The notes under the pieces: generated by a model | Database searches by the model: none | Told to the model about the DNA's origin: nothing | What the model saw: only the letters and a program-made list of their open reading frames with translations | Source of the DNA: an uncultured Elusimicrobia bacterium | GTDB taxonomy: Bacteria > Elusimicrobiota > Elusimicrobia > UBA1565 > UBA9628 | Direction: 5' to 3' | DNA length: 64,000 bases | Assembly (NCBI GenBank): GCA_903881545.1 | Contig: CAIRTQ010000055.1 | Span: 1 to 64,000 of the forward strand | Part shown: piece by piece, positions 4,422 through 63,736 of the stretch | Numbering within the stretch: position 1 is the stretch's first letter | Layout of the letters: every line of letters begins with the position of its first letter | Position numbers and translations under genes: made by a program

Positions 4422-6320
4422 ATGTGCGGAATCTGCGGCATCGTCAACAAAGACGGCTCCACCCCCGACTCGGCGCTGCTCAAGAAATCCAACGACCTCT
4501 TCACCCACCGCGGGCCTGACGACGAAGGGCTCTTCGTCCACGGCCCGGCCGGGCTGGCCATGCGCCGCCTGGCCATCATCGATCTCAACACCGGCCACCA
4601 GCCCATCACCTCGGCCGACGGCCGCTACACCATCGTCTTCAACGGCGAGATCTACAACTTCCTGGAACTGCGCGCCGAGCTTGTCGCCCAAGGCTGCTCC
4701 TTCCGCACCAAGACCGACACCGAGGTCATCCTCACCCTCTACCAGCGCCTCGGCACGGACTGCGTCAAGCGCCTGCGCGGCATGTTCGCCTTCGCCATCT
4801 GGGACAAGCTCGACGAGCGTTTGTTTTTGGCGCGCGACCGCATCGGCAAGAAGCCCCTGGTCTACACCGAGCAGCCCGGCTTCTTCGCCTTCGCCTCGGA
4901 GCTGCGTTCGCTCTTCGTCTGGCCCGGCGTCTCGCGCGATATCGACCCGCAGGCCATAGACCTCTTCCTCTCCCTTCAGTACATCCCCTCGCCCGGCACC
5001 ATCTACCGCAGCGTCCGCAAGCTGCCCCCCGGGCACACCTTGGTCTATCACAAGGGCAAGAGCACGGTGGAGCGCTACTGGGACCTGCCCTTGGGCCAGC
5101 CTCCCATCACCCGCGATTTCGAGACCGCCAAGCATCTGGTCGCCGACAAGCTCCGCGAAGCCGTGCGCCTGCGCCTGATCTCGGACGTGCCCCTGGGAGC
5201 TTTCCTTTCCGGAGGGATCGACTCCTCCATCATCGTGGCGCTCATGAGCGAGCTCTCCGACCGGCCGGTCAAGACCTTCGCCATCGGCTTCGAGGAAGAG
5301 GCGTTCTCCGAGTTGCGTTTCGCCAAGGTCCTGGCCCAGCGCTACGGCTGCGAGCACACCGAGCTCATCGTCAAGCCCCAGATGGCCGACGTCCTGCCCA
5401 AGCTGGCCTGGCATTACGGCGAGCCCTACGCCGACTCCTCGGCCCTGCCTTCCTATTATGTGGCCCGGGAGACGCGGCGCTATGTCACCGTGGCTTTGAA
5501 CGGCGACGGCGGCGACGAGAACTTCGCCGGCTACATCCGCTACTTCGCCATGAAGCTGGCGCGGGTCTTCGACGCCCTGCCCGCCAGCGCGCGCAGCGGC
5601 CTCAAGGCCGGGGCGGAGCGCCTGCCGGACTGGCACGCGCCCTATGGCTTCACCTGGCGGCTCAAGCGCTTCCTGCGCTCCACTTTGCTGCAGGACCTGC
5701 CCCACCGCCACCTCAAGATGATCTGCTATTTCTCGGAGGAGGACAAGGCCGGCCTCTACGCTCCGGAGTTCCTGGCGCGTCTGGGCGTCCCCGGCTCGGC
5801 CGGCGGCTACATGAAGCGCGCCTTCGCGGACTGCGCGGGGGAGGATTTCGTCAACCGCCTCCTTTATGTGGACTTCAAGACCTACCTGCCCGAGTGCCTC
5901 ATGACCAAGATGGACATCGCGGCCATGGCCAACTCCCTGGAAGGGCGCTCGCCGTTCTTGGATCACGAGTTCGTGGAGCTGGTCTACCGCATGCCTGGGG
6001 ACTGGAAGCTCAAGGGCCTGCGCGGGCACAAGTACCTGCTCAAGGAAGCCTTCCGCGACAAGCTGCCGCCCGTGATCTTCAACCGGGGCAAGATGGGCTT
6101 CGGCATCCCGCTGGGCACCTGGTTTCGCGGGCCGCTCAAGTCCTATTGGGAAGATCATGTCCTGGGCTCCCGCGCCCTGTCGCGCGGCTATTTCAACCCG
6201 GCCGCCCTGCGCCGCATCTGGGACGAGCATCAAAGCGGGCGCCGCGACCACGGTTACCGCCTCTGGGCCCTGCTCATGCTGGAGCTCTGGCACGAGAACT
6301 GCCTGGAAGCCGGGCAATAG
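4422..6320 (+). CDS. asnB: Asparagine synthase (glutamine-hydrolysing)
   Basis: 632 residues. The start is fixed by the N-terminal nucleophile: MCGICGIVN gives Cys2 after removal of Met. Residues 2-210 are a class II glutamine amidotransferase domain, with FNGEIYNF and the D-E glutamine-binding pattern. Residues 225-600 form the synthetase domain, with the ATP pyrophosphatase loop SGGIDSS near residue 263. It transfers ammonia from glutamine to aspartate with ATP consumption. Paralogues of this length in polysaccharide loci often amidate sugars or lipid-linked precursors instead (the AsnB/WbpS type). Here it is followed directly by a TPR gene (stop TAG abutting ATG) and by glycosyltransferases, so an amidation role in glycan assembly is possible. 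Confidence 0.9.
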   Translation: MCGICGIVNKDGSTPDSALLKKSNDLFTHRGPDDEGLFVHGPAGLAMRRLAIIDLNTGHQPITSADGRYTIVFNGEIYNFLELRAELVAQGCSFRTKTDTEVILTLYQRLGTDCVKRLRGMFAFAIWDKLDERLFLARDRIGKKPLVYTEQPGFFAFASELRSLFVWPGVSRDIDPQAIDLFLSLQYIPSPGTIYRSVRKLPPGHTLVYHKGKSTVERYWDLPLGQPPITRDFETAKHLVADKLREAVRLRLISDVPLGAFLSGGIDSSIIVALMSELSDRPVKTFAIGFEEEAFSELRFAKVLAQRYGCEHTELIVKPQMADVLPKLAWHYGEPYADSSALPSYYVARETRRYVTVALNGDGGDENFAGYIRYFAMKLARVFDALPASARSGLKAGAERLPDWHAPYGFTWRLKRFLRSTLLQDLPHRHLKMICYFSEEDKAGLYAPEFLARLGVPGSAGGYMKRAFADCAGEDFVNRLLYVDFKTYLPECLMTKMDIAAMANSLEGRSPFLDHEFVELVYRMPGDWKLKGLRGHKYLLKEAFRDKLPPVIFNRGKMGFGIPLGTWFRGPLKSYWEDHVLGSRALSRGYFNPAALRRIWDEHQSGRRDHGYRLWALLMLELWHENCLEAGQ

Positions 6321-13359: not shown

Positions 13360-14688
13360 ATGGCTGCGGACCAGAACGCTGACCTTCGGAAGCGCATTCT
13401 GGAGCTGGTAGGGCAGTACGCGCGGCAGAAGTTCGCGCCGCGGCCGTTTGCGCCGGGCCAGGACCTCGTCCATTACGCCGGCCGGGTCTTCGACGGCGAC
13501 GAACTGACCCACGCCGCCGACGCCGTCCTCGATTTTTTCTTGACCGCCAACCGGTTCTCCGAGCAGTTCGAGGCGGATTTTGCCGGCCATTTTGGGGTGC
13601 CCGGAGCTTATCTGGTCAACTCCGGCTCCTCGGCCAACCTACTGGCCATCACCGCGTTGACCTCCCCCAAGCTGGGAGAGCGCCGGCTGCGGCCCGGCGA
13701 TGAGGTGGTCACCGTCGCGGCGGGGTTCCCCACCACGCTGGCGCCCATCCTGCAGAACGGGCTGGTCCCGGTCTTCGTGGATGTGGGCATCGGCGATTAC
13801 ACCGCGATCTCGGAGCGGGTCGCGCAGGCCGTCGGCCCCCGGACCCGGGCCGTCATGATGGCGCACACCATGGGCAACCCCTTCGACCTGGACGCCGTGC
13901 AGGAGACCGCCCGCCGGCACGGGCTCTGGCTGGTGGAAGACAACTGTGACGCCCTGGGCTCCACCTACCGCGGCCGGATGACCGGCACGTTCGGCCACCT
14001 GGCGACCTTCTCGTTCTATCCCGCGCATCACATCACCATGGGCGAAGGCGGCTGCGTCATCGCGGCCGGCGATACGGCTGAGGAGCTGGGGCGCATCGTG
14101 CGCTCGCTGCGCGATTGGGGCCGGGACTGCTACTGCGCGGGGGGAGAGACCAACACCTGCGGCAAGCGCTTCGCGCAGCAGTTCGGGACGCTTCCGGCCG
14201 GCTTTGATCATAAATACGTCTACTCGCACATCGGCTACAACCTCAAGCTCACGGACCTGCAGGCCGCGGTCGGCTGCGCGCAGTGGCGTAAGCTGCCCGG
14301 CTTCATCGCGCGGCGCAAGGCCAATTTCGAGTATCTCCGGAAGGCTCTGTCTCCCTACGAGGATCGCCTGGTCCTGCCGTCGGCCACCCCCGGCTCGGAC
14401 CCGGCGTGGTTCGGCTTCGTGATCACGGTGCGTGAAGGCGCGGGCTTTACTAGGACCGACCTACAGCGCCACCTCGAGGAGCGCAAGGTGGAGACGCGGG
14501 CGCTGTTCGCCGGCAACCTGCTGCGCCATCCCGCGTTTCTCGACATCCCACACCGCGTCTGCGGCGACCTGCGCAATACCGACCGCATCACCGATTCCAC
14601 CTTCTTCGTGGGCGTCTATCCGGGGCTCGACGAGCCGCGGCTCGCCTACATGGCCCAGGCCTTCCAGGATTTCCTCAAGGCCCGCTGA
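13360..14688 (+). CDS. CDP-4-dehydro-6-deoxyglucose 3-dehydrase-like (E1, RfbH/DdhC type)
   Basis: 442 residues from ATG 13360, with TATCAT ending 9 nt before it. It is a fold-type I PMP/PLP enzyme of the DegT/DnrJ/EryC1 superfamily. At the place of the usual PLP lysine it has [12 protein letters not shown] (His223-His224), the signature of E1 enzymes, which use PMP for C3 deoxygenation instead of amination. The iron-sulfur ligands are visible too: C196 in [10 protein letters not shown], then C257-x-C259-x7-C267 in [12 protein letters not shown], as in RfbH/AscC. Reaction by family: removal of the C3 hydroxyl of CDP-4-keto-6-deoxyglucose on the way to 3,6-dideoxyhexoses. The next gene encodes a reductase suited as its electron donor. 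Confidence 0.88.
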
Positions 14689-16621: not shown

Positions 16622-17620
16622 ATGGCGCCCGCGTACGCGCAGCCCCCGGACGAGCCGCGGCGCGTCGATATCCACCTGGGGACCCGCTGTAACAGCCGCT
16701 GCGCCTTTTGCATGAGCAGTGTGCCGCGCGACCAGCGGGAGCCGTGGGCGCCGCCGGAGCGGGTCCGGGCGGAACTTCGGCATTTTCACCAGAGCGGCTG
16801 CCGCGCCGCGGGGTTCCTGGGCGGCGAGCCCACCGCCTATCCCGGACTGGCCGCCTGCATCGCTTACGCCAAGAAGTTGGGCTACGCCCGGATATCCCTC
16901 TGCACCAACGGTCTACGGTTTTCCGATGCCGGGTTCTGCCGGGCGCTGGTGGATGCGGGGCTTACGCGCGTGACCTTGTCCGTCCATAGCCACCTCGCGC
17001 GCGTGGAGGACCGGCGCATCACCCGCGTTCGGGGCGCGCTGGCCCGCAAGGTGCGGGCGGTCCGCAACCTCGTCGCCTTGCGGGACCAGGGGCGCCTGCC
17101 GGGCAATATCGCCCTGAACCCGGTGCTATGCCGTCCCAATCTGGAGGGGCTGGAGGGCTATGTGGCATTCTTCGGCGGCCTCGGCGTGGACGACATCCGC
17201 TTTAATTATATTTGGCCGCATGGCGAGGCGCGCGGCGAGCGGGCCTGGGTCCCGTCTTTCCGCGAGGCCATGCCGCAGGTAGTGCGTCTCATTCTGCTTA
17301 ATGAGAAGGGCTCCCGCAGGCGCCTCTCCTTCGGCGGGGTGCCTAAGTGCGCTCTGTTCCAGGCCGGGGTTTCGCCGCGCTTGCTGGAGCATCTGGCGGC
17401 CAGGTATTTCGACGAGGCCGGCTTCGACCCGGGCAATGATGTGAGCATGGCCGGGCAAGCTGGCGGGCGGGAGGAGCGGTTCGTCTGGCAGGAGCGCAAG
17501 AGGGACGTGCTTAAAGTCCAGGCGCCGGGCTGCCGGAGCTGCCGGCATCGGGACCGCTGTGAGGGCGTATGGGCCAGTTACGCGGACATCTATGGTTTCG
17601 GCGAGTTGCAACCGTTGTGA
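16622..17620 (+). CDS. Radical SAM protein with C-terminal cysteine cluster
   Basis: 332 residues from ATG 16622. The [4Fe-4S] motif is C23-x3-C27-x2-C30 in GTRCNSRCAFC, followed by a GFLGGEPTAYP glycine-rich SAM-binding strand and ISLCTNGLRF. The C-terminus has a second cysteine group, 'GCRSCRHRDRCEGVW', with the C-x2-C-x5-C spacing seen in SPASM/twitch-type auxiliary cluster domains. Such proteins modify peptides, glycans or cofactors. The substrate cannot be inferred. It stands after the polysaccharide locus and before the secreted YYPAP proteins, either of which could supply the target. The alternative start MCVMAP (16616) would overlap the -10 box. Confidence 0.85.
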   Translation: MAPAYAQPPDEPRRVDIHLGTRCNSRCAFCMSSVPRDQREPWAPPERVRAELRHFHQSGCRAAGFLGGEPTAYPGLAACIAYAKKLGYARISLCTNGLRFSDAGFCRALVDAGLTRVTLSVHSHLARVEDRRITRVRGALARKVRAVRNLVALRDQGRLPGNIALNPVLCRPNLEGLEGYVAFFGGLGVDDIRFNYIWPHGEARGERAWVPSFREAMPQVVRLILLNEKGSRRRLSFGGVPKCALFQAGVSPRLLEHLAARYFDEAGFDPGNDVSMAGQAGGREERFVWQERKRDVLKVQAPGCRSCRHRDRCEGVWASYADIYGFGELQPL

Positions 17621-17626
17621 CGGCCG

Positions 17627-18244
17627 TTATTTGGGGCAGCAATAGAGATACCCCGGGTCGATATTATTGTGGTACTGGGTGAGGGTGGCCCAGTCTGCGA
17701 CCTTGGTGCCCGTATTCAAGGCATAGACCTGGGTGGTCGTGATGCCTCCGCCTAAGTTGGCATAGACGTTGCCGCCGCGATTCTGGTAGGACACGCCCGA
17801 AATGAACAATCCTGGGGTCCAAGTGGCGTATTGGCTCGCTGAGTTGCAAGCATTGCCGTTGGGAGTGGGGTTTATATTTAGCGAGCATCCGGTCGCGGTG
17901 TTGTCGATGTACAGATAGCCCTTTTGTGGGGAAGAGGGAGCGAAGGCCAGGCCCGAGCCGTTGCCGTTCAAGATGACATTGCCAGCGGCTATCTGGAGTT
18001 TTGCCGCGGGGCTTGTGGTGCCGATGCCGACGTTGCTGGAGGCCGTCGTGGCCAGGAAGGTGTTCTGCGTGGTGATCATCTGGGTGTAGACGCCTGATGG
18101 GGCGGGATAATAGTTCGACAAGTTCACGCTTTCCGAGCCCAATTCAGGGGCGAACGCTAGTAGGATGGCCGCCGCGAAGCCCAGGGTCACCGCCTGCGGC
18201 GGCAGGGTCAGGTCAAAATGGATGTTGATCTTTCTTTGGCTCAT
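17627..18244 (-). CDS. Secreted YYPAP-motif protein, paralogue 1
   Basis: 205 residues. After a basic N-terminus there is one hydrophobic segment (VTLGFAAAILLAFAPELGSE), then LSNYYPAPSGVYTQMITT and a short 'NVGIGTTSPAAKLQI' stretch like those in phage tail-fibre and trimeric-autotransporter stalks. The C-terminal domain has paired cysteines and ends YLYCCPK. It lacks the GFTLIE cleavage motif of type IV pilins, though size, single N-terminal helix and C-terminal beta-rich domain are pilin-like. It is a close relative of the next upstream gene (same strand, 18-nt gap). It is probably exported and surface-associated; no function is established from sequence. Confidence 0.7.
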   Translation of the reverse strand: MSQRKINIHFDLTLPPQAVTLGFAAAILLAFAPELGSESVNLSNYYPAPSGVYTQMITTQNTFLATTASSNVGIGTTSPAAKLQIAAGNVILNGNGSGLAFAPSSPQKGYLYIDNTATGCSLNINPTPNGNACNSASQYATWTPGLFISGVSYQNRGGNVYANLGGGITTTQVYALNTGTKVADWATLTQYHNNIDPGYLYCCPK

Positions 18245-18262
18245 AAGCGCTCCTGGCGTTCT

Positions 18263-18943
18263 TTACCGTGGGCAGCAGTAGACGGTCAATACCGCTCCCT
18301 CGGTATACGGCGGCGTGGCTTGAGAAACGGTCCCCCAACCCGCCGCCGCGCTAGGATCCGATATGTATTTGTTGGGCTGGGCTTCCTTCCAGCATAAGCC
18401 AGCCAACTCGTCGGCCGTGAAACTGCAGACTTGACTCGTCTTGACTCCGCCGGACAAGGCGGCATAGACATTCCCGCCGTGATTCTGGTAGGACAAGCCG
18501 TCGATATACAGTCCCTGGGTCCAAGTGGCGTAAAATCCTGACGGGCAGACGCTGTTGCTGTTGGGCGCGACAATGCGCGGGTAGGTGCAGCCGGTTGAAT
18601 CGAGGTTGATGCGCAAATAGCCCTTGCTGGCGGGTGAAGGAGTGTAATCGAGCCCGCCGCCGATGCCGTCTATTATGAGATTGCCGGAAGCGACCTGGAG
18701 TTTTGCCGCGGGATTTGTGGTGCCGATGCCTACATGGCCGGAGTTGGTGGCGAGGTAGGCGTTCTCATAGGTTATCATCTTATTGTATACGCCGGAGGGA
18801 GCGGGGTAATAGCTCGTCAAGTCCACATTCTCAGAGCCCAATTCGGGCGCCATGATGAGCAACAGCAACGCCGCGATGCTCAAGCAGAATGAGCGCGGCG
18901 GCAGGGACGATATATCCCAGCTGATATAGATGTCTTTGCGCAT
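18263..18943 (-). CDS. Secreted YYPAP-motif protein, paralogue 2
   Basis: 226 residues from ATG 18943. It has the same plan as its neighbour: basic start MRKDIYISWD, one hydrophobic segment (CLSIAALLLLIMAPELGSE), LTSYYPAPSGVYNKMITY, 'HVGIGTTNPAAKLQVASG', a C-terminal domain with GLYIDGLSYQNHGGNVYAAL (the neighbour has GLFISGVSYQNRGGNVYANL) and the end VYCCPR. It has more cysteines than paralogue 1. The two genes are clearly a tandem duplication that has since diverged. A minus-strand promoter lies at 18999-18972. A surface or pseudopilus-like role is possible. A long upstream extension of the frame to 19990 is only antisense to the flavoprotein gene. Confidence 0.7.
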   Translation of the reverse strand: MRKDIYISWDISSLPPRSFCLSIAALLLLIMAPELGSENVDLTSYYPAPSGVYNKMITYENAYLATNSGHVGIGTTNPAAKLQVASGNLIIDGIGGGLDYTPSPASKGYLRINLDSTGCTYPRIVAPNSNSVCPSGFYATWTQGLYIDGLSYQNHGGNVYAALSGGVKTSQVCSFTADELAGLCWKEAQPNKYISDPSAAAGWGTVSQATPPYTEGAVLTVYCCPR

Positions 18944-19075: not shown

Positions 19076-19951
19076 ATGCGCCAGGCCGCCAGCTGGGAAA
19101 GCGTGATTGTGGGAGGCGGGCCTGCCGGCTTGGCCGCCGGGCTGCATCTGGCGCGGGCGGGCTATCGCGTCCTGCTGGTCGAATCCGGCCACCTGGGCGG
19201 CCAGGCGCGCGGCTTGGGCCGCATCGAGAATTACCCCGGATTCCCCGCCGGCATAGATGGCGGCCGGCTTATGGAGCGCTGGGTCCGGCAGGCCCGGCGT
19301 TGGGGCCTGCGGACTCGGCACGCCACTGTCCGAAGTGCCCGCCGCGGGGCCCGGGGGTTCCTGCTGAGCCTGGACCATGGCCGGGCTCTGGCCGCGCGCA
19401 GTTTGGTGTACTGTCCCGGCGCGCCTTTCGACGACCTGGCCTTGCCCCAGGAGAAGCGGCTGCGCGGGTGCGGGGTCTTCCACGCGGCCTTTGATCGCGC
19501 CAGCCGTTGGAGCGGGCGGACCGTGGCCGTGGCCGGGGGCGGCGAGGCGGCCGCGCACCAGGCACTGGCCTTGTCGCGCCACGCCCGCGCGGTCCATCTT
19601 ATCTGCCGCAGCGGCGAGGTCAAGGCGCATCGCCTGTTGCGGCGCCGGCTGCGCGACAACCCGCGCATCGTGATGTCCCTGGGCGCGCGCGTGCTGCGCC
19701 TGCACGGCCGTCGCCGCCTGGAAGCGGTGGATGTCTCTAGCTGTGGCACCCGTCGGCGCCTCGCTGTGGACGCGCTCTTCGTCCTCGTCGGGAAGGTCCC
19801 GCCCCGCCTGCCTTTCCCGGCCGGGCGCTTGCCGCCCGGATTCTTCGTGGCCGGCGACGCCGCGGGCGAAGACCGCCAGGTCGTGGTCGCGGCCGGATCG
19901 GGGGTCAAGGCAGCCATGCGGTGCATCGGGTTCCTGGAGGGCAGGCCGTGA
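19076..19951 (+). CDS. Thioredoxin-reductase-like flavoprotein lacking the redox CxxC
   Basis: 291 residues. The FAD-binding Rossmann motif is VGGGPAGLAAG (12-22), followed by GGQARGLGRIENYPGFP, the ENYPG signature of thioredoxin reductases. The second Rossmann motif VAVAGGGEAAAHQALAL lies near 150-166 and the FAD-binding FVAGDAAGEDRQVV near 267. Where true enzymes have GVSYCATCDG, this protein reads GVFHAAFDR (133-141), so both redox cysteines are gone. It cannot work as a classic thioredoxin reductase. It may pass electrons directly to a partner, as ferredoxin-NADP reductases of this fold do. The GTGA overlap with the downstream radical SAM fusion suggests it supplies electrons to that enzyme. 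Confidence 0.82.
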   Translation: MRQAASWESVIVGGGPAGLAAGLHLARAGYRVLLVESGHLGGQARGLGRIENYPGFPAGIDGGRLMERWVRQARRWGLRTRHATVRSARRGARGFLLSLDHGRALAARSLVYCPGAPFDDLALPQEKRLRGCGVFHAAFDRASRWSGRTVAVAGGGEAAAHQALALSRHARAVHLICRSGEVKAHRLLRRRLRDNPRIVMSLGARVLRLHGRRRLEAVDVSSCGTRRRLAVDALFVLVGKVPPRLPFPAGRLPPGFFVAGDAAGEDRQVVVAAGSGVKAAMRCIGFLEGRP

Positions 19952-21552
19952 GGATCGCGGAAGAGCGGCAGGCGGCGGGGCTGGCCACACTGTACCTGGC
20001 GGAACTGCCGGGCGAGCCGCCGCGCCGCGTGGAGTTCGTGGACACCAGGGAGCCGGGCCTGCCCAAGGCCGCCAAGTGGGTCATGATGATATCGACGCAG
20101 GCGGGCTGCGCGGTAGGCTGCCGCATGTGCGACGCGGCCGCGGCCGGCTATCAGGGGAACCTGTCGGCGGAGGAGATGCTCGACCAGGTCCGGTTCATGG
20201 CCCGGCGGAACCCGGACCTGGACCTTCTGCGCCATCCCAAGGTCAAGATCCACTTCGCGCGCATGGGCGAGCCGTCCCTGAATCCGGCGGTCCTCGAGGC
20301 CTTGCGGGGTCTGGCCAGGGAGTTCCCCGGCCCGGGGATCATTGCCAGCGTCTCCAGCGTGGCGCCCAAGAGTCCCGTGACCGCGGCCTGGTTCGCGGAG
20401 CTCGCGCGCGTTAAGGACGAATGCTTCGGCGGCGGGCGCTTCCAGCTCCAATTCTCCTTGCATTCCGTCGATGAAGAGAAGCGCCAGGAGATCATTCCGA
20501 TCAAGAAGTGGCGCCTGGAGGAGGTGGCGGACTTCGGCCGCCGCTTCGTCAAGCCCGGCGACCGCAAGGTGACCCTCAACTTCGCTCCCGGCCCGGGCGA
20601 GGCCTTGGAGCCGGGCGCCATCGCCCGGGCCTTCGACCCGCGGCATTTCCTCATCAAGGTCACGCCGGTCAACCCCACTTTGGCGGCGCAGCGCAGCGGG
20701 ACGGCCTTCGTCTGGAGCGAGGCTCCGCCGTCGCTGCGGGCGGCCGCGGCGGAACTCGAACAGAGCGGTTTCCAGGTCATCTTGTCTCCCAGCTCCCCGG
20801 AGGAGGTGGCGTCCGAGACCTCCTGCGGCCAGCTCTGGAGCGAGCGCCTCAAGACTTCGGCCGCCGCCGGCCTGCGCGCGCAGCGGCGCGAGCTGGATTG
20901 CTATGTCACAACCGACTCCATGCCCCGGAAGGCCGAGGCTTGGTTGCAGGAGTCGGCGCCGCGGCGCTGTCCGTCTCCGCCCTTCGAGCCGGCCGCGGCC
21001 GCCCTTTTGGTCGTGGACATGCAGGATTTTTTCCTGGACCGGAGCGCGCCGGCCTATCTGCCCTCCGGCCGCGCCGCCTTGCGCAACGTCAGGCGCCTCG
21101 TGGAGGCCTTCCGCGCCGCCGGACGGCCGGTCTTGTTCACGTTGCATGCGCACGAGGACCTGGCCCGGGACGGCGGGCTCATGGCCCGTTGGTGGCAGGA
21201 AGCGTGCCTGGCGGGCTCGCCCTGGGCCCGGGTGGCGGCGGTCTTGGAGCCGCGGGCCGGCGACACCTACCTTAAGACGCGCTACAGCGCTTTCTCCAAC
21301 CCGGCTCTGGAGGCGCGGCTGAAGACGGACCGGGTCACCCAACTGGCGCTGGCCGGGGTCAAGACCGACCTTTGCGTCGAGTCCACGGCGCGGGCCGCCT
21401 TCGATCTGGGCTGGCATACCTTCGTGGCCGTGGACGCCACGGCCACCCGCACCGAAGCCCAGCACATCGGCGCCCTCAAGTCCTTGGCGCGCGGTTTTTC
21501 TGCGCTGACCGACACCGGGCGGCTTGTCGCCAGCCTCGGCAGCGGAGCGTAA
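19948..21552 (+). CDS. Radical SAM domain fused to isochorismatase-like cysteine hydrolase
   Basis: 534 residues from GTG 19948, which overlaps the previous stop (GTGA) and has GGAGGG about 7 nt upstream. Residues 40-300 form a radical SAM domain with C54-x3-C58-x2-C61 (GCAVGCRMCD), similar in layout to RlmN-type enzymes (VKIHFARMGEPSLNP, 'FSLHSVDEEKRQEIIP'). Residues 348-525 form an isochorismatase-superfamily hydrolase with a complete triad: D357 in LVVDMQDFF, K443 in YLKTRYSAF and C476 in VKTDLCVES. The catalytic Cys points to nicotinamidase/carbamoylsarcosine-type amide hydrolysis rather than true isochorismatase. The fusion implies sequential steps on one substrate. The substrate is unknown. 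Confidence 0.82.
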   Translation: MRIAEERQAAGLATLYLAELPGEPPRRVEFVDTREPGLPKAAKWVMMISTQAGCAVGCRMCDAAAAGYQGNLSAEEMLDQVRFMARRNPDLDLLRHPKVKIHFARMGEPSLNPAVLEALRGLAREFPGPGIIASVSSVAPKSPVTAAWFAELARVKDECFGGGRFQLQFSLHSVDEEKRQEIIPIKKWRLEEVADFGRRFVKPGDRKVTLNFAPGPGEALEPGAIARAFDPRHFLIKVTPVNPTLAAQRSGTAFVWSEAPPSLRAAAAELEQSGFQVILSPSSPEEVASETSCGQLWSERLKTSAAAGLRAQRRELDCYVTTDSMPRKAEAWLQESAPRRCPSPPFEPAAAALLVVDMQDFFLDRSAPAYLPSGRAALRNVRRLVEAFRAAGRPVLFTLHAHEDLARDGGLMARWWQEACLAGSPWARVAAVLEPRAGDTYLKTRYSAFSNPALEARLKTDRVTQLALAGVKTDLCVESTARAAFDLGWHTFVAVDATATRTEAQHIGALKSLARGFSALTDTGRLVASLGSGA

Positions 21553-21575
21553 ACAAGGTATAATGTTGGTATCAA

Positions 21576-23537
21576 ATGAAAAGAATCCTATTTACGAGCA
21601 TCTGCCGGCCTCTGGGCCCCGAGTGCGGAGACGGCCCCAGCGTGGGCTATGAGCTGCTTTTCGGGCAAGTCACGCGCGCGCAAGGGATCTTCAGCCCCCG
21701 GGCGGTCCATCATCACTTTTCCTTGGAATATATCGCCGCCAACATCCAAGCGCCGGCCGTGGTGCTGCAATATCCCTCCCGGAGCGAGCTCATCCGGGAG
21801 CTCAAGAAAGGCTACGATTACGTGGGCGTCTCCTTCATCCTATCCACGTTCCACCGCATGAAGGAGATCGTGGCGCTCATCCGCCGCTACGCCCCCAAGA
21901 GCCGGATCGTATTGGGCGGCTACGGGACGGTGCTGGGCGAGGAGTTCCTCAAACCCTACGGTGATCATATTTGCCGGGGCGAGGGGGTTGAGTTCTTTCG
22001 GAAGCTCCTGGGTGAGGAGCATCATCCCGGTCCGTACCAGCATCCCTTGGTCGTCAGCCGGCTCAAGGTCTTCGGCCTGCCGGCCGGCAACACGGGCATG
22101 ATCTTCGCCGGCCTGGGCTGTCCGAACGGCTGCGATTTCTGCTGCACCTCCCACTACTTCAAGCGCCAGCATATCAAGCTCCTGCCCACGGGGCGGGACA
22201 TCTTCAACGTTGTGGAGCGCTATCTGGACATGGATCCGCACATGTCCTTCACGGTCATCGATGAGGATTTTCTGCTCGACAAGAAGAGGGCCATGGAGTT
22301 CCGGGAGCTGGCGCTACAGTCCGGCCGCCCGCTCTCCATCTTCGCCTTCGCCAGCATCCGGGCCTTGAGCCAATACCGGGTCGAGGAACTCCTGGAGATG
22401 GGCATAGACGGGGTCTGGATCGGCTACGAGGGCACGCGCTCCGGCTACGGCAAGCAGACGGGCCGGCCCGTCGCGGAGGTGTTCCGGGAACTGCGCGAGC
22501 ACGGCATCACGATCCTGTCTTCCATGATCGTGGGCTTCGACTATCAGGACGAGGCGACGGTGGAGCAGGAGCTCGACGGCCTGCTGGCCTTGAAGCCCGC
22601 CCTGGCGCAGTTCCTCATCTACGGCCCCACGCCCGGCACGCCCTTCTGGGATCGGGTGCAGGCCGAGGGGCGGCTGCGCGCGGACCTGGCAGCAGATCCT
22701 GAGACTTTTTGCCGCAGCGCTTCTGGCTTCACCGCCATGGTCAAGCACCCCAAGCTCTCGGCCGCACAGATCGAGGGGCTTCAGCGCCGGTGCTTCGCCG
22801 AGGATTATCGCCGGCTCGGGCCCAGCATCTACCGAGCGGTGGAAGTCTGGCTCAACGGCTACCTCAAGCTTAAGGATTCCTCCAATCCCATGCTGGCCCG
22901 GAAGGCCGCCAGCTTCGCCCGCGACATCCGTAAGTCGTACCCGATCTTCCTCGCTGGCCGGCTGTTCGGCCCCAACCGCGAGGTCCGGGCCTGGATCGCG
23001 GACCTGGAGCGCCGGGCGCACGCGGCCCTGGGCGCGCCGACCGGGATGGAGCGCGCCGCTGCCGCAGCCGCCGTGTGCGCCGCGGCTTGGACCAGCCTGA
23101 CGCTCAAGTTGGGGCTGTTCCAGCACCCGCGCCTGTTGCGCACCGCCTATCGCCAGCCGGATTCCGCCTGGGCCGCTCATGGTGTCTGGGAGTCCTTAGC
23201 CGCGCGCCTCAAGGCCCGGGATTTCCGGATGCAGGTGGAGTTCCTGCACGCCCGGCGCGAAGTCTGGCTCAAGTGCGAGGGCAAGTTGAGCGGCGCGGAG
23301 GCAGCGCGTCTTTGGCAGGGCCTGGGCCAGTCCCTGGGGCGCAGCCACAGCCGCGTGATTCTGGATTTGAAGCGGTTCCACTGGGAGGGCCCCTCCCTCT
23401 CTCCCGAATTCAAGGCTAAGCTGGCCCAGTGTCAAGACCGCATCCGCGTGGTCCTGCCCAAGCTCCAGCACGCCCATCCAGAAATCCTTATCCTTGCCCA
23501 GATGCTGCGCGAATACAAAGGCGGCTTCGGGCTTTAG
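21576..23537 (+). CDS. B12-binding-type radical SAM protein
   Basis: 653 residues. Residues 1-140 look like a cobalamin-binding Rossmann domain ('DYVGVSFILSTFHRMKEIVALIR', 'IVLGGYGTVLGEEF', 'ICRGEGVEFF'). The radical SAM cluster is C182-x3-C186-x2-C189 (GCPNGCDFCC). The TIM-barrel pattern continues with FTVIDEDFLLDKKRAMEF and GVWIGYEGTRSGYGKQ. Around 250 C-terminal residues (after about 400) are helical and unassigned. Members of this class methylate or rearrange lipids, peptides or pigments. A TATAAT at 21559-21564 ends 11 nt before the ATG, so it may have its own short-leader transcript in addition to readthrough. A chorismate mutase gene starts 3 nt after its stop. Confidence 0.85.
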   Translation: MKRILFTSICRPLGPECGDGPSVGYELLFGQVTRAQGIFSPRAVHHHFSLEYIAANIQAPAVVLQYPSRSELIRELKKGYDYVGVSFILSTFHRMKEIVALIRRYAPKSRIVLGGYGTVLGEEFLKPYGDHICRGEGVEFFRKLLGEEHHPGPYQHPLVVSRLKVFGLPAGNTGMIFAGLGCPNGCDFCCTSHYFKRQHIKLLPTGRDIFNVVERYLDMDPHMSFTVIDEDFLLDKKRAMEFRELALQSGRPLSIFAFASIRALSQYRVEELLEMGIDGVWIGYEGTRSGYGKQTGRPVAEVFRELREHGITILSSMIVGFDYQDEATVEQELDGLLALKPALAQFLIYGPTPGTPFWDRVQAEGRLRADLAADPETFCRSASGFTAMVKHPKLSAAQIEGLQRRCFAEDYRRLGPSIYRAVEVWLNGYLKLKDSSNPMLARKAASFARDIRKSYPIFLAGRLFGPNREVRAWIADLERRAHAALGAPTGMERAAAAAAVCAAAWTSLTLKLGLFQHPRLLRTAYRQPDSAWAAHGVWESLAARLKARDFRMQVEFLHARREVWLKCEGKLSGAEAARLWQGLGQSLGRSHSRVILDLKRFHWEGPSLSPEFKAKLAQCQDRIRVVLPKLQHAHPEILILAQMLREYKGGFGL

Positions 23538-23540
23538 GCC

Positions 23541-23858
23541 GTGGCCGACCCGCAGTCGCGGCGTCTGGCGGCCCTGCGCCGCCGAATTGATTTTTGGGAC
23601 CGGGCTATTGTGCGCGCCCTGGTGCAAAGGTCCCGGATCGTGTGCGCCCTGGCGCCCCTCAAGCCCCGGGTGCGGGACCTTCGCCGGGAGGCCGACGTGC
23701 TGGCCAATGTCCTGGGGCAGGCCCGCCGCAGCGGCGCGGATCGCGGTTTCGTGGAGCAGGTGTATCGCGCCATCCTGCGCGCCAGCCGGTCCCTCCAGAG
23801 GCGCCCGGCGCGGCGCTCGCCTTCAGAAGGTCACCAGCGCGATGCCGGCCAGCGCTAG
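23541..23858 (+). CDS. Chorismate mutase, AroQ type
   Basis: 105 residues from GTG 23541. The first 90 residues match the AroQ-alpha three-helix fold: 'LAALRRRIDFWDRAIVRALV', 'LKPRVRDLRREADVL' and 'FVEQVYRAILRASRSLQ'. The residues equivalent to the E. coli active site are present: Arg in LRRRID, R30, K41, R49, E50, S82 and Q86. It should therefore convert chorismate to prephenate by Claisen rearrangement, the branch point to Phe and Tyr. No dehydratase or dehydrogenase is fused. Position at the end of the radical SAM cluster suggests a role in a dedicated pathway, although housekeeping is equally possible. The last 12 residues overlap the convergent EamA gene. Confidence 0.8.
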   Translation: MADPQSRRLAALRRRIDFWDRAIVRALVQRSRIVCALAPLKPRVRDLRREADVLANVLGQARRSGADRGFVEQVYRAILRASRSLQRRPARRSPSEGHQRDAGQR

Positions 23859-62686: not shown

Positions 62687-63736
62687 ATGGACCTTAAGGC
62701 TGCGGCCGCGGCGCTCAAAGGCTTGCATGCGCCCGCCTTCCGTCTGGATCAAGTGCGCCGGGCGGTCTACGGCCAAACGGTCTCCTCTTATGAGGAGATC
62801 TCGGTCTTGCCCTTGGACCTGCGCCAGGAGCTCGCCGGCGCGGCGCCCATCTTGAGCTTCATCCCGCGCGAGATCAAAATCGCTCCGGACGGCCGAGCGC
62901 GCAAGGCCGCGCTCGTTCTCCGTGACGGCAAGGCCGTGGAAACGGTCCTGCTCAAGCCTAGCCCCCAGCGCTGGACCGCTTGCCTTTCCACGCAGGTCGG
63001 CTGCGCCTTCGGGTGCGTCTTCTGCGCTACGGGCCTCATGGGCCTGGAGCGGGATCTGACCGGGGAGGAAATCTCGGACCAGGTTTTGTTCTGGCGCCAG
63101 CACATGCGCCGTGAGGGGTTGCAGGACAGGCTCGATAACGTGGTCTACATGGGCATGGGCGAGCCGCTGGCCAATTACGAGGCCGTCGCTGAGAGCCTGC
63201 GCAGTCTTTTGGACCCCAGGCAGCACGGCATCGGAGCGCGGCATATCTCGGTCTCGACCGTGGGTATCCCCGATGGCATCGCGCGCTTCGCCGAGGATTT
63301 CCCGCAGGTCAACCTGGCGGTGTCTTTGCACGCAGCCCAGGATGATTTGCGCAGCCGTCTGGTGCCGGCGAACCGCGCCTTTCCGCTCGCGAAGCTGGCC
63401 CGGGCCATGGAGGAATATGTCGGCCGCGGCAACCGCAAAGTGTTCCTGGAATATGCTTTGCTCAGCGGAGTCAACGACCGGGCGGGCGACGCGCAGGATC
63501 TCATCGCTTTCGTGCGGGGACTGGGCCGCACGGAGCTTTTTCACATCAACTTGATTCTGTACAATCCTACTCAGACCCCGTTTGAGGCCACGGCCGAGCC
63601 CGAGGCCAGGCGGTTCCAGAAATGCCTGCTCGATGCCGGCCTCAAGGTCACGGTTCGCCAGAGCCTGGGAGCCGAGGTGCGCGGGGCCTGCGGACAACTT
63701 ATAGCTGATAGGAGCCCAGATGTCAGACAGCCCTGA
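62687..63736 (+). CDS. rlmN: Dual-specificity 23S rRNA/tRNA adenine C2 methyltransferase RlmN
   Basis: 349 residues. Radical SAM cluster C106-x3-C110-x2-C113 (VGCAFGCVFCATG), 'VVYMGMGEPLANYEAV', 'VNLAVSLHAAQDDLRSRLVPANR', and the methyl-carrying C-terminal Cys in EVRGACGQL near residue 335. The N-terminal 'FRLDQVRRAVYGQTVSSYEEI' helical domain is the RNA-binding part. It methylates A2503 of 23S rRNA and A37 of some tRNAs, improving translational fidelity. The last 17 nt overlap the start of the next gene. Confidence 0.95.
   Translation: MDLKAAAAALKGLHAPAFRLDQVRRAVYGQTVSSYEEISVLPLDLRQELAGAAPILSFIPREIKIAPDGRARKAALVLRDGKAVETVLLKPSPQRWTACLSTQVGCAFGCVFCATGLMGLERDLTGEEISDQVLFWRQHMRREGLQDRLDNVVYMGMGEPLANYEAVAESLRSLLDPRQHGIGARHISVSTVGIPDGIARFAEDFPQVNLAVSLHAAQDDLRSRLVPANRAFPLAKLARAMEEYVGRGNRKVFLEYALLSGVNDRAGDAQDLIAFVRGLGRTELFHINLILYNPTQTPFEATAEPEARRFQKCLLDAGLKVTVRQSLGAEVRGACGQLIADRSPDVRQP

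Follow-up and report, generated by a model that had tools for sequence, protein, structure and literature searches.

A flavoprotein, RlmN-like radical SAM domain and cysteine hydrolase as a conserved three-protein unit in bacteria and archaea

The conserved unit at this Elusimicrobia locus consists of three proteins, a flavoprotein (FLAV), an RlmN/Cfr-like radical SAM domain (RSAM), and a cysteine hydrolase domain (ICH), and it spans both bacteria and archaea. In the window (the whole 64,000-nucleotide stretch analyzed), RSAM and ICH are fused, and two further genes follow them (Table 1). The initial annotation had described four plus-strand genes at 19076-23858, with a 4-nt GTGA overlap between the FLAV and RSAM-ICH open reading frames (ORFs) and subsequent gaps of 23 and 3 nt, and had assigned domains to each gene; the ORF coordinates bear out this layout, and Pfam and NCBIfam profile matches agree with the domains. 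Compared with two congeners, dN was lower than dS for all four genes (dN/dS of about 0.13 to 0.35). Module genes were located in other genomes by six-frame profile searches, while gene neighborhoods were read with a gene caller that missed the small AroQ gene and some low-GC genes.

Table 1. Features of the module and the genes that follow it in the window
Feature	Coordinates	Strand	Remark
FLAV (TrxR-like FAD/NAD(P)H flavoprotein without CxxC)	19076..19951	+	module core
RSAM (RlmN/Cfr-like radical SAM domain)	19948..20907	+	module core
ICH (PF00857 cysteine hydrolase domain, triad D357-K443-C476; fused to RSAM)	20923..21552	+	module core
RSAM-ICH fusion ORF	19948-21552	+	534 aa
B12-binding radical SAM protein (BchE/HpnJ-like core plus extra C-terminal region)	21576..23537	+	facultative neighbor
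AroQ-type chorismate mutase	23541..23858	+	probably housekeeping neighbor

Distribution and linkage of the three genes

Within Elusimicrobiota, a search for the fusion at an E value of 1e-30 matched 41/295 genomes and 22/90 genera, some of them with the radical SAM part only. A scan of further genomes retrieved the same proteins, unfused, from Thermoplasmata archaea and other bacteria. The RSAM family profile matched 35/194 genomes of Thermoplasmatota (the phylum of a Methanomassiliicoccales genome), 4/201 genomes of Chloroflexota (the phylum of an Anaerolineales genome), and 11/149 and 18/39 genomes in two further groups. No RSAM domain was found on plasmids in PLSDB at an E value of 1e-20. 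Literature searches for the gene combination found no relevant description. Four archaeal copies contain an in-frame TAG; a reading as pyrrolysine was rejected, as these codons sit at the natural C-terminal end.

FLAV lies immediately 5' of RSAM in 44/54, 34/34, and 20/20 loci of three sets (about 98/108), counts that include a few duplicate loci; contig ends account for some of the exceptions. The 4-nt overlap of the two genes is often seen, in archaea as in the Elusimicrobiota window. It had been asked whether the flavoprotein and AroQ genes stay beside the fusion: FLAV does, and it also accompanies the split versions in other phyla and in archaea, but AroQ adjoins the module in the window's genus only. 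In a few Elusimicrobiota, FLAV is absent from the site and a radical SAM gene of a separate cluster (c4) precedes RSAM. An unclassified radical SAM family that comprises L087:10641-11576, L091:6169-7131, and cluster c4 lies directly 5' of FLAV or RSAM in the related families f2 and f3, at some loci replacing FLAV, and gave no NCBIfam match at an E value of 1e-15.

Most Elusimicrobiota carriers have ICH fused C-terminally to RSAM. The possibility that the fusion is confined to one assembly is ruled out by the 33 fused proteins read from Elusimicrobiota loci. As a separate gene, ICH usually precedes FLAV; this split form occurs in archaea, in other phyla, and in a few Elusimicrobiota. Outside Elusimicrobiota, the genes usually run hydrolase-flavoprotein-radical SAM. 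In a tree built from 84 RSAM rows, two label changes were required for the 33 fused rows, the second of which is explained by a locus that ends inside the radical SAM part (L038). A single fusion is thus the simplest reading, and the fusion apparently arose once, within Elusimicrobiota. Fused or adjacent in split form, ICH accompanies RSAM in most loci; because a minority have no ICH beside RSAM, and because ICH also occurs alone in other bacteria, the coupling may be loose.

Sequence and fold of the three proteins

The radical SAM half of the fusion ORF matches PF04055 in Pfam and is specifically RlmN/Cfr-like, a point absent from the initial annotation, with an NCBIfam match to TIGR00048 (E value of 1e-17) that falls below the cutoff. 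Against the curated RlmN/Cfr cutoffs, it scored 63.8 bits (cutoff of 290) and 56.7 bits (cutoff of 550), below both. An AlphaFold2 model of the RSAM-ICH fusion was confident (pLDDT of 95.9), and its nearest folds in the PDB were RlmN (6fz6 and 5hr6) and isochorismatase/biuret hydrolases.

Class A radical SAM methylases use two conserved cysteines, of which C118 is indispensable in that it resolves the cross-linked intermediate, being essential in both RlmN and Cfr; the RlmN/Cfr-type methylases described act on RNA substrates and require both cysteines (PMC9692996). In a 90-row RSAM alignment, the CX3CX2C cysteines of the 4Fe-4S cluster are kept in 89/90 rows. The SAM-binding GEP motif is retained. 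The counterpart of C355, the methyl-carrying cysteine of RlmN, is Cys in all 85 rows that have a residue at that position (C293 in the window) and lies in a conserved CGQ motif placed exactly where RlmN has this cysteine. In contrast, the column equivalent to C118 holds Met, Ile, Thr, Leu, Val, Arg, and others, never Cys (Met47 in the window). In the same alignment, the window's separate RlmN (62687-63736) does have Cys in this column, unlike RSAM.

RSAM shares with RlmN/Cfr the radical SAM core, the CX3CX2C and GEP motifs, the C355 equivalent in its CGQ motif, and the fold, and differs from them in lacking a C118 equivalent and the N-terminal RNA-binding domain of RlmN, in scoring below the NCBIfam cutoffs, and in having a near-constant flavoprotein partner and a fused hydrolase. 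As judged from these alignments and models, the family is RlmN-like in its fold and methyl-carrying cysteine, yet it fails a defining class A feature, as the C118 equivalent is missing.

RSAM might still modify tRNA or rRNA as RlmN and Cfr do, with FLAV as its reductase and the link to ICH incidental. RlmN and Cfr are indeed its closest families and folds, and the retained C355 equivalent and GEP motif are compatible with such a role. We nevertheless consider it quite unlikely: the RNA-binding domain is gone, the resolving cysteine is absent from every row, a separate Cys-bearing RlmN is encoded in the same window, and fusion with a small-molecule hydrolase fits RNA modification poorly.

FLAV matches PF07992 (Pfam; E value of 1e-17) and, below the cutoff, the thioredoxin reductase (TrxR) model TIGR01292 (E value of 6e-51; 173 bits against a cutoff of 343). 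It has the FAD and NAD(P)H Rossmann domains and the overall fold of TrxR, from which it differs in its pairing with RSAM and in lacking the redox-active CxxC of the NADPH domain. The initial annotation had called the flavoprotein cysteine-less at this site, and the window FLAV does lack CxxC, as do 81/83 aligned rows. The two rows with CxxC (L072, 6232-7158, and the L044 copy on the minus strand) represent separate TrxR-like genes, not module FLAVs. The glycines of the NAD(P)H-binding site are kept; the second NADPH arginine reads as not kept. CxxC is also missing from the group of TrxR-like ferredoxin-NADP reductases (FNRs), which likewise have FAD/NAD(P)H domains. FLAV differs from these in that its profile is nearer to TrxR than to FNR; TrxR is closest by both fold and profile, with FNR matches in the PDB ranking far below TrxR matches. 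Because the disulfide is lost and pairing with RSAM is near-constant, we infer that FLAV is a putative dedicated electron donor (reductase) of RSAM, a role that its near-constant position beside both fused and split RSAM genes would fit.

ICH matches PF00857 (Pfam; E value of 2e-40) and scores below the RutB and BiuH cutoffs in NCBIfam. The catalytic triad proposed in the initial annotation holds in the numbering of the fusion protein, and D-K-C is invariant in 21/21 aligned hydrolases, archaeal ones included. True isochorismatases (EntB/PhzD) have Gly in place of the triad Cys. On the strength of its PF00857 match and triad, ICH is a cysteine hydrolase of the isochorismatase superfamily rather than a true isochorismatase, since the catalytic Cys is kept and is not Gly. 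It has the same fold and triad as the biuret, triuret, and ureidoacrylate hydrolases and N-carbamoylsarcosine amidase, differing from these as a family of its own that is partnered with FLAV and RSAM.

Genes beside the module

The B12-binding radical SAM protein matches PF02310 and PF04055 (Pfam) and falls below all NCBIfam cutoffs. It shares its B12-binding and radical SAM domains with BchE/HpnJ-type enzymes, differing from them in an extra C-terminal region, and a sequence search found no PDB relative. Its gene is present in 43/295 genomes, 16 with the module and 27 without it; a further 25 genomes have the module only. Co-occurrence in 16 genomes compares with a chance expectation of 6 (Fisher P = 2e-5, uncorrected for phylogeny). 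The gene adjoins the module (within 1.4 kb) in 9 of these 16 and, where checked, has unrelated surroundings elsewhere. We thus rejected the B12 enzyme as an obligate partner, given the 27 genomes that have it alone and its adjacency in only 9/16; it looks like an occasional, separable neighbor outside the module core. At one locus (L074), the cluster also holds a second, divergent RSAM-like gene (5221-5949), just 5' of the B12 gene and with no hydrolase domain.

AroQ matches PF01817 above the cutoff (Pfam; E value of 5e-13; 49.5 bits against 27), and its residues are compatible with the active site in a weak alignment to the solved AroQ 2d8d (E value of 0.002). It is the only CM_2 protein detected in the window genome; across the window's genus, it is the sole one detected in four genomes (G000, G085, G163, and G275), and it is therefore probably a housekeeping gene of Phe/Tyr synthesis. 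In another genome of the genus (G099), AroQ lies far from the module; for these two reasons, its role as a pathway gene is disfavored.

All four genes had initially been proposed to form one dedicated pathway from chorismate-derived material. They do share one strand and tight spacing, and three further genomes of the genus have the same four-gene order. Even so, such a pathway is very improbable: AroQ adjacency is limited to the genus, where AroQ is the only chorismate mutase detected and lies elsewhere in G099; the B12 gene often occurs without the module; the hydrolase has Cys rather than Gly; and most carriers have neither gene adjacent. Chorismate as the starting material is thus not supported.

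The other neighbors of the module differ between lineages. Several gene names were read from sequence; those confirmed by profile scan are marked "(profile)". One Elusimicrobiota group has pantothenate/CoA genes by the module with FolKC/FolP nearby (profile), and several related genomes have pyrK and pyrD flanking the FLAV-RSAM pair (profile). ThiD is directly downstream in L142 and L144 (profile), ThiC-ThiD-ThiE lies about 3 kb downstream in G111, NrdD is near the module in L063, L066, and L067 (profile), and molybdenum cofactor (Moco) genes are near it in L036 and L064. Lipoate-like genes also occur among these neighbors, and archaeal copies have FolC and PurN/PurH-like genes nearby (profile). 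The neighbors share a flavor of cofactor, nucleotide, and one-carbon metabolism, with no single pathway common to all lineages.

The pyrK/pyrD, ThiD, and folate genes might suggest that the module stands in for an absent standard enzyme (thymidylate synthase or ThiC, for example), an idea that we regard as extremely improbable. Thymidylate synthase replacement, prompted by the pyrK/pyrD neighbors, was rejected since ThyX is present in 34/36 genomes irrespective of the module (ThyA in none). In the two remaining genomes (G089 and G203), neither enzyme was detected, perhaps through incompleteness. ThiC replacement, prompted by the ThiD neighbors and a C2-methyl analogy, was rejected since most carriers outside Elusimicrobiota have ThiC (6/6 archaeal carriers and 9/9 tested carriers of the L055 phylum), and most Elusimicrobiota are without ThiC whether or not they have the module.

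Other genes were observed around the module. In the window, a radical SAM protein at 16622-17620 resembles HxsC4 (NF038332; E value of 4e-34, below the cutoff); several Elusimicrobiota loci have relatives of it (cluster c2) a few kilobases away from the module, and in the window pseudopilin-like genes at 17627-18943 lie between it and the module. A flavin reductase-like protein (PF00175; 14432-15427) lies beside an ORF at 13360-14688 that reads from its sequence as a DegT-type enzyme, which suggests a deoxysugar pair. A tryptophanase/tyrosine phenol-lyase family gene (cluster c13) is near the module at L039, L060, L061, L062, and L075, the L061 member scoring above the NF009709 cutoff. A SPASM radical SAM protein close to AhbD/TIGR04053 (cluster c9) lies directly 5' of FLAV at L060, L064, and L086.

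Proposed activity and its implications

We tentatively propose, at a little under an even chance, that the three proteins form one enzyme system in which an RlmN-type enzyme with a single cysteine, powered by FLAV, acts on a small metabolite and is coupled to a hydrolase. FLAV would take electrons from NAD(P)H via its FAD and, having no redox cysteines, would pass them on to the RSAM 4Fe-4S cluster, either directly or through a small carrier. Conservation and fold support SAM binding by RSAM at the CX3CX2C cluster. C293 would then carry a SAM-derived one-carbon unit or take part in the radical step as a thiol. The absence of RlmN's RNA-binding domain makes a small-molecule substrate probable; a nitrogen heterocycle, similar to the adenine ring modified by RlmN, would be plausible. 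Since the resolving cysteine is also missing, an RlmN-type carbon-sulfur intermediate would have to be released in another way, possibly with FLAV electrons. ICH might then hydrolyze an amide bond, or one like it, in the product or in a shared intermediate; this would account for its recurrent pairing and fusion with RSAM. The B12 enzyme and AroQ would stand outside this core system.

Two accounts of the radical step can be weighed. RSAM may be no methylase at all, with C293 as a hydrogen donor or thiyl in a small-molecule oxidation, isomerization, or ring cleavage, FLAV moving electrons in or out, and ICH hydrolyzing the product. The missing resolving cysteine and the tight linkage of flavoprotein and hydrolase would suit this account, but the CGQ motif is conserved exactly at the position of the methyl-carrying cysteine, and we judge it somewhat unlikely. 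Alternatively, one cysteine would carry the SAM-derived carbon, the carbon-sulfur intermediate would be resolved by FLAV electrons or by transfer to another acceptor in place of a second cysteine, and the hydrolase would finish a methylated or methylene-bearing cofactor precursor; in this full detail, the account is unlikely. If true, RlmN-type radical SAM chemistry would have a third kind, directed at small molecules.

The physiological electron donors of radical SAM enzymes are often unknown, and FLAV is a candidate for such a donor. That FLAV, RSAM, and ICH travel together across several phyla of bacteria and some of the archaea points to an undescribed enzyme system, and the RSAM family offers a natural test of the purpose of the resolving cysteine. 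A family lacking this cysteine in every member, with a reductase and a hydrolase as its partners, would extend RlmN-type chemistry to metabolites.
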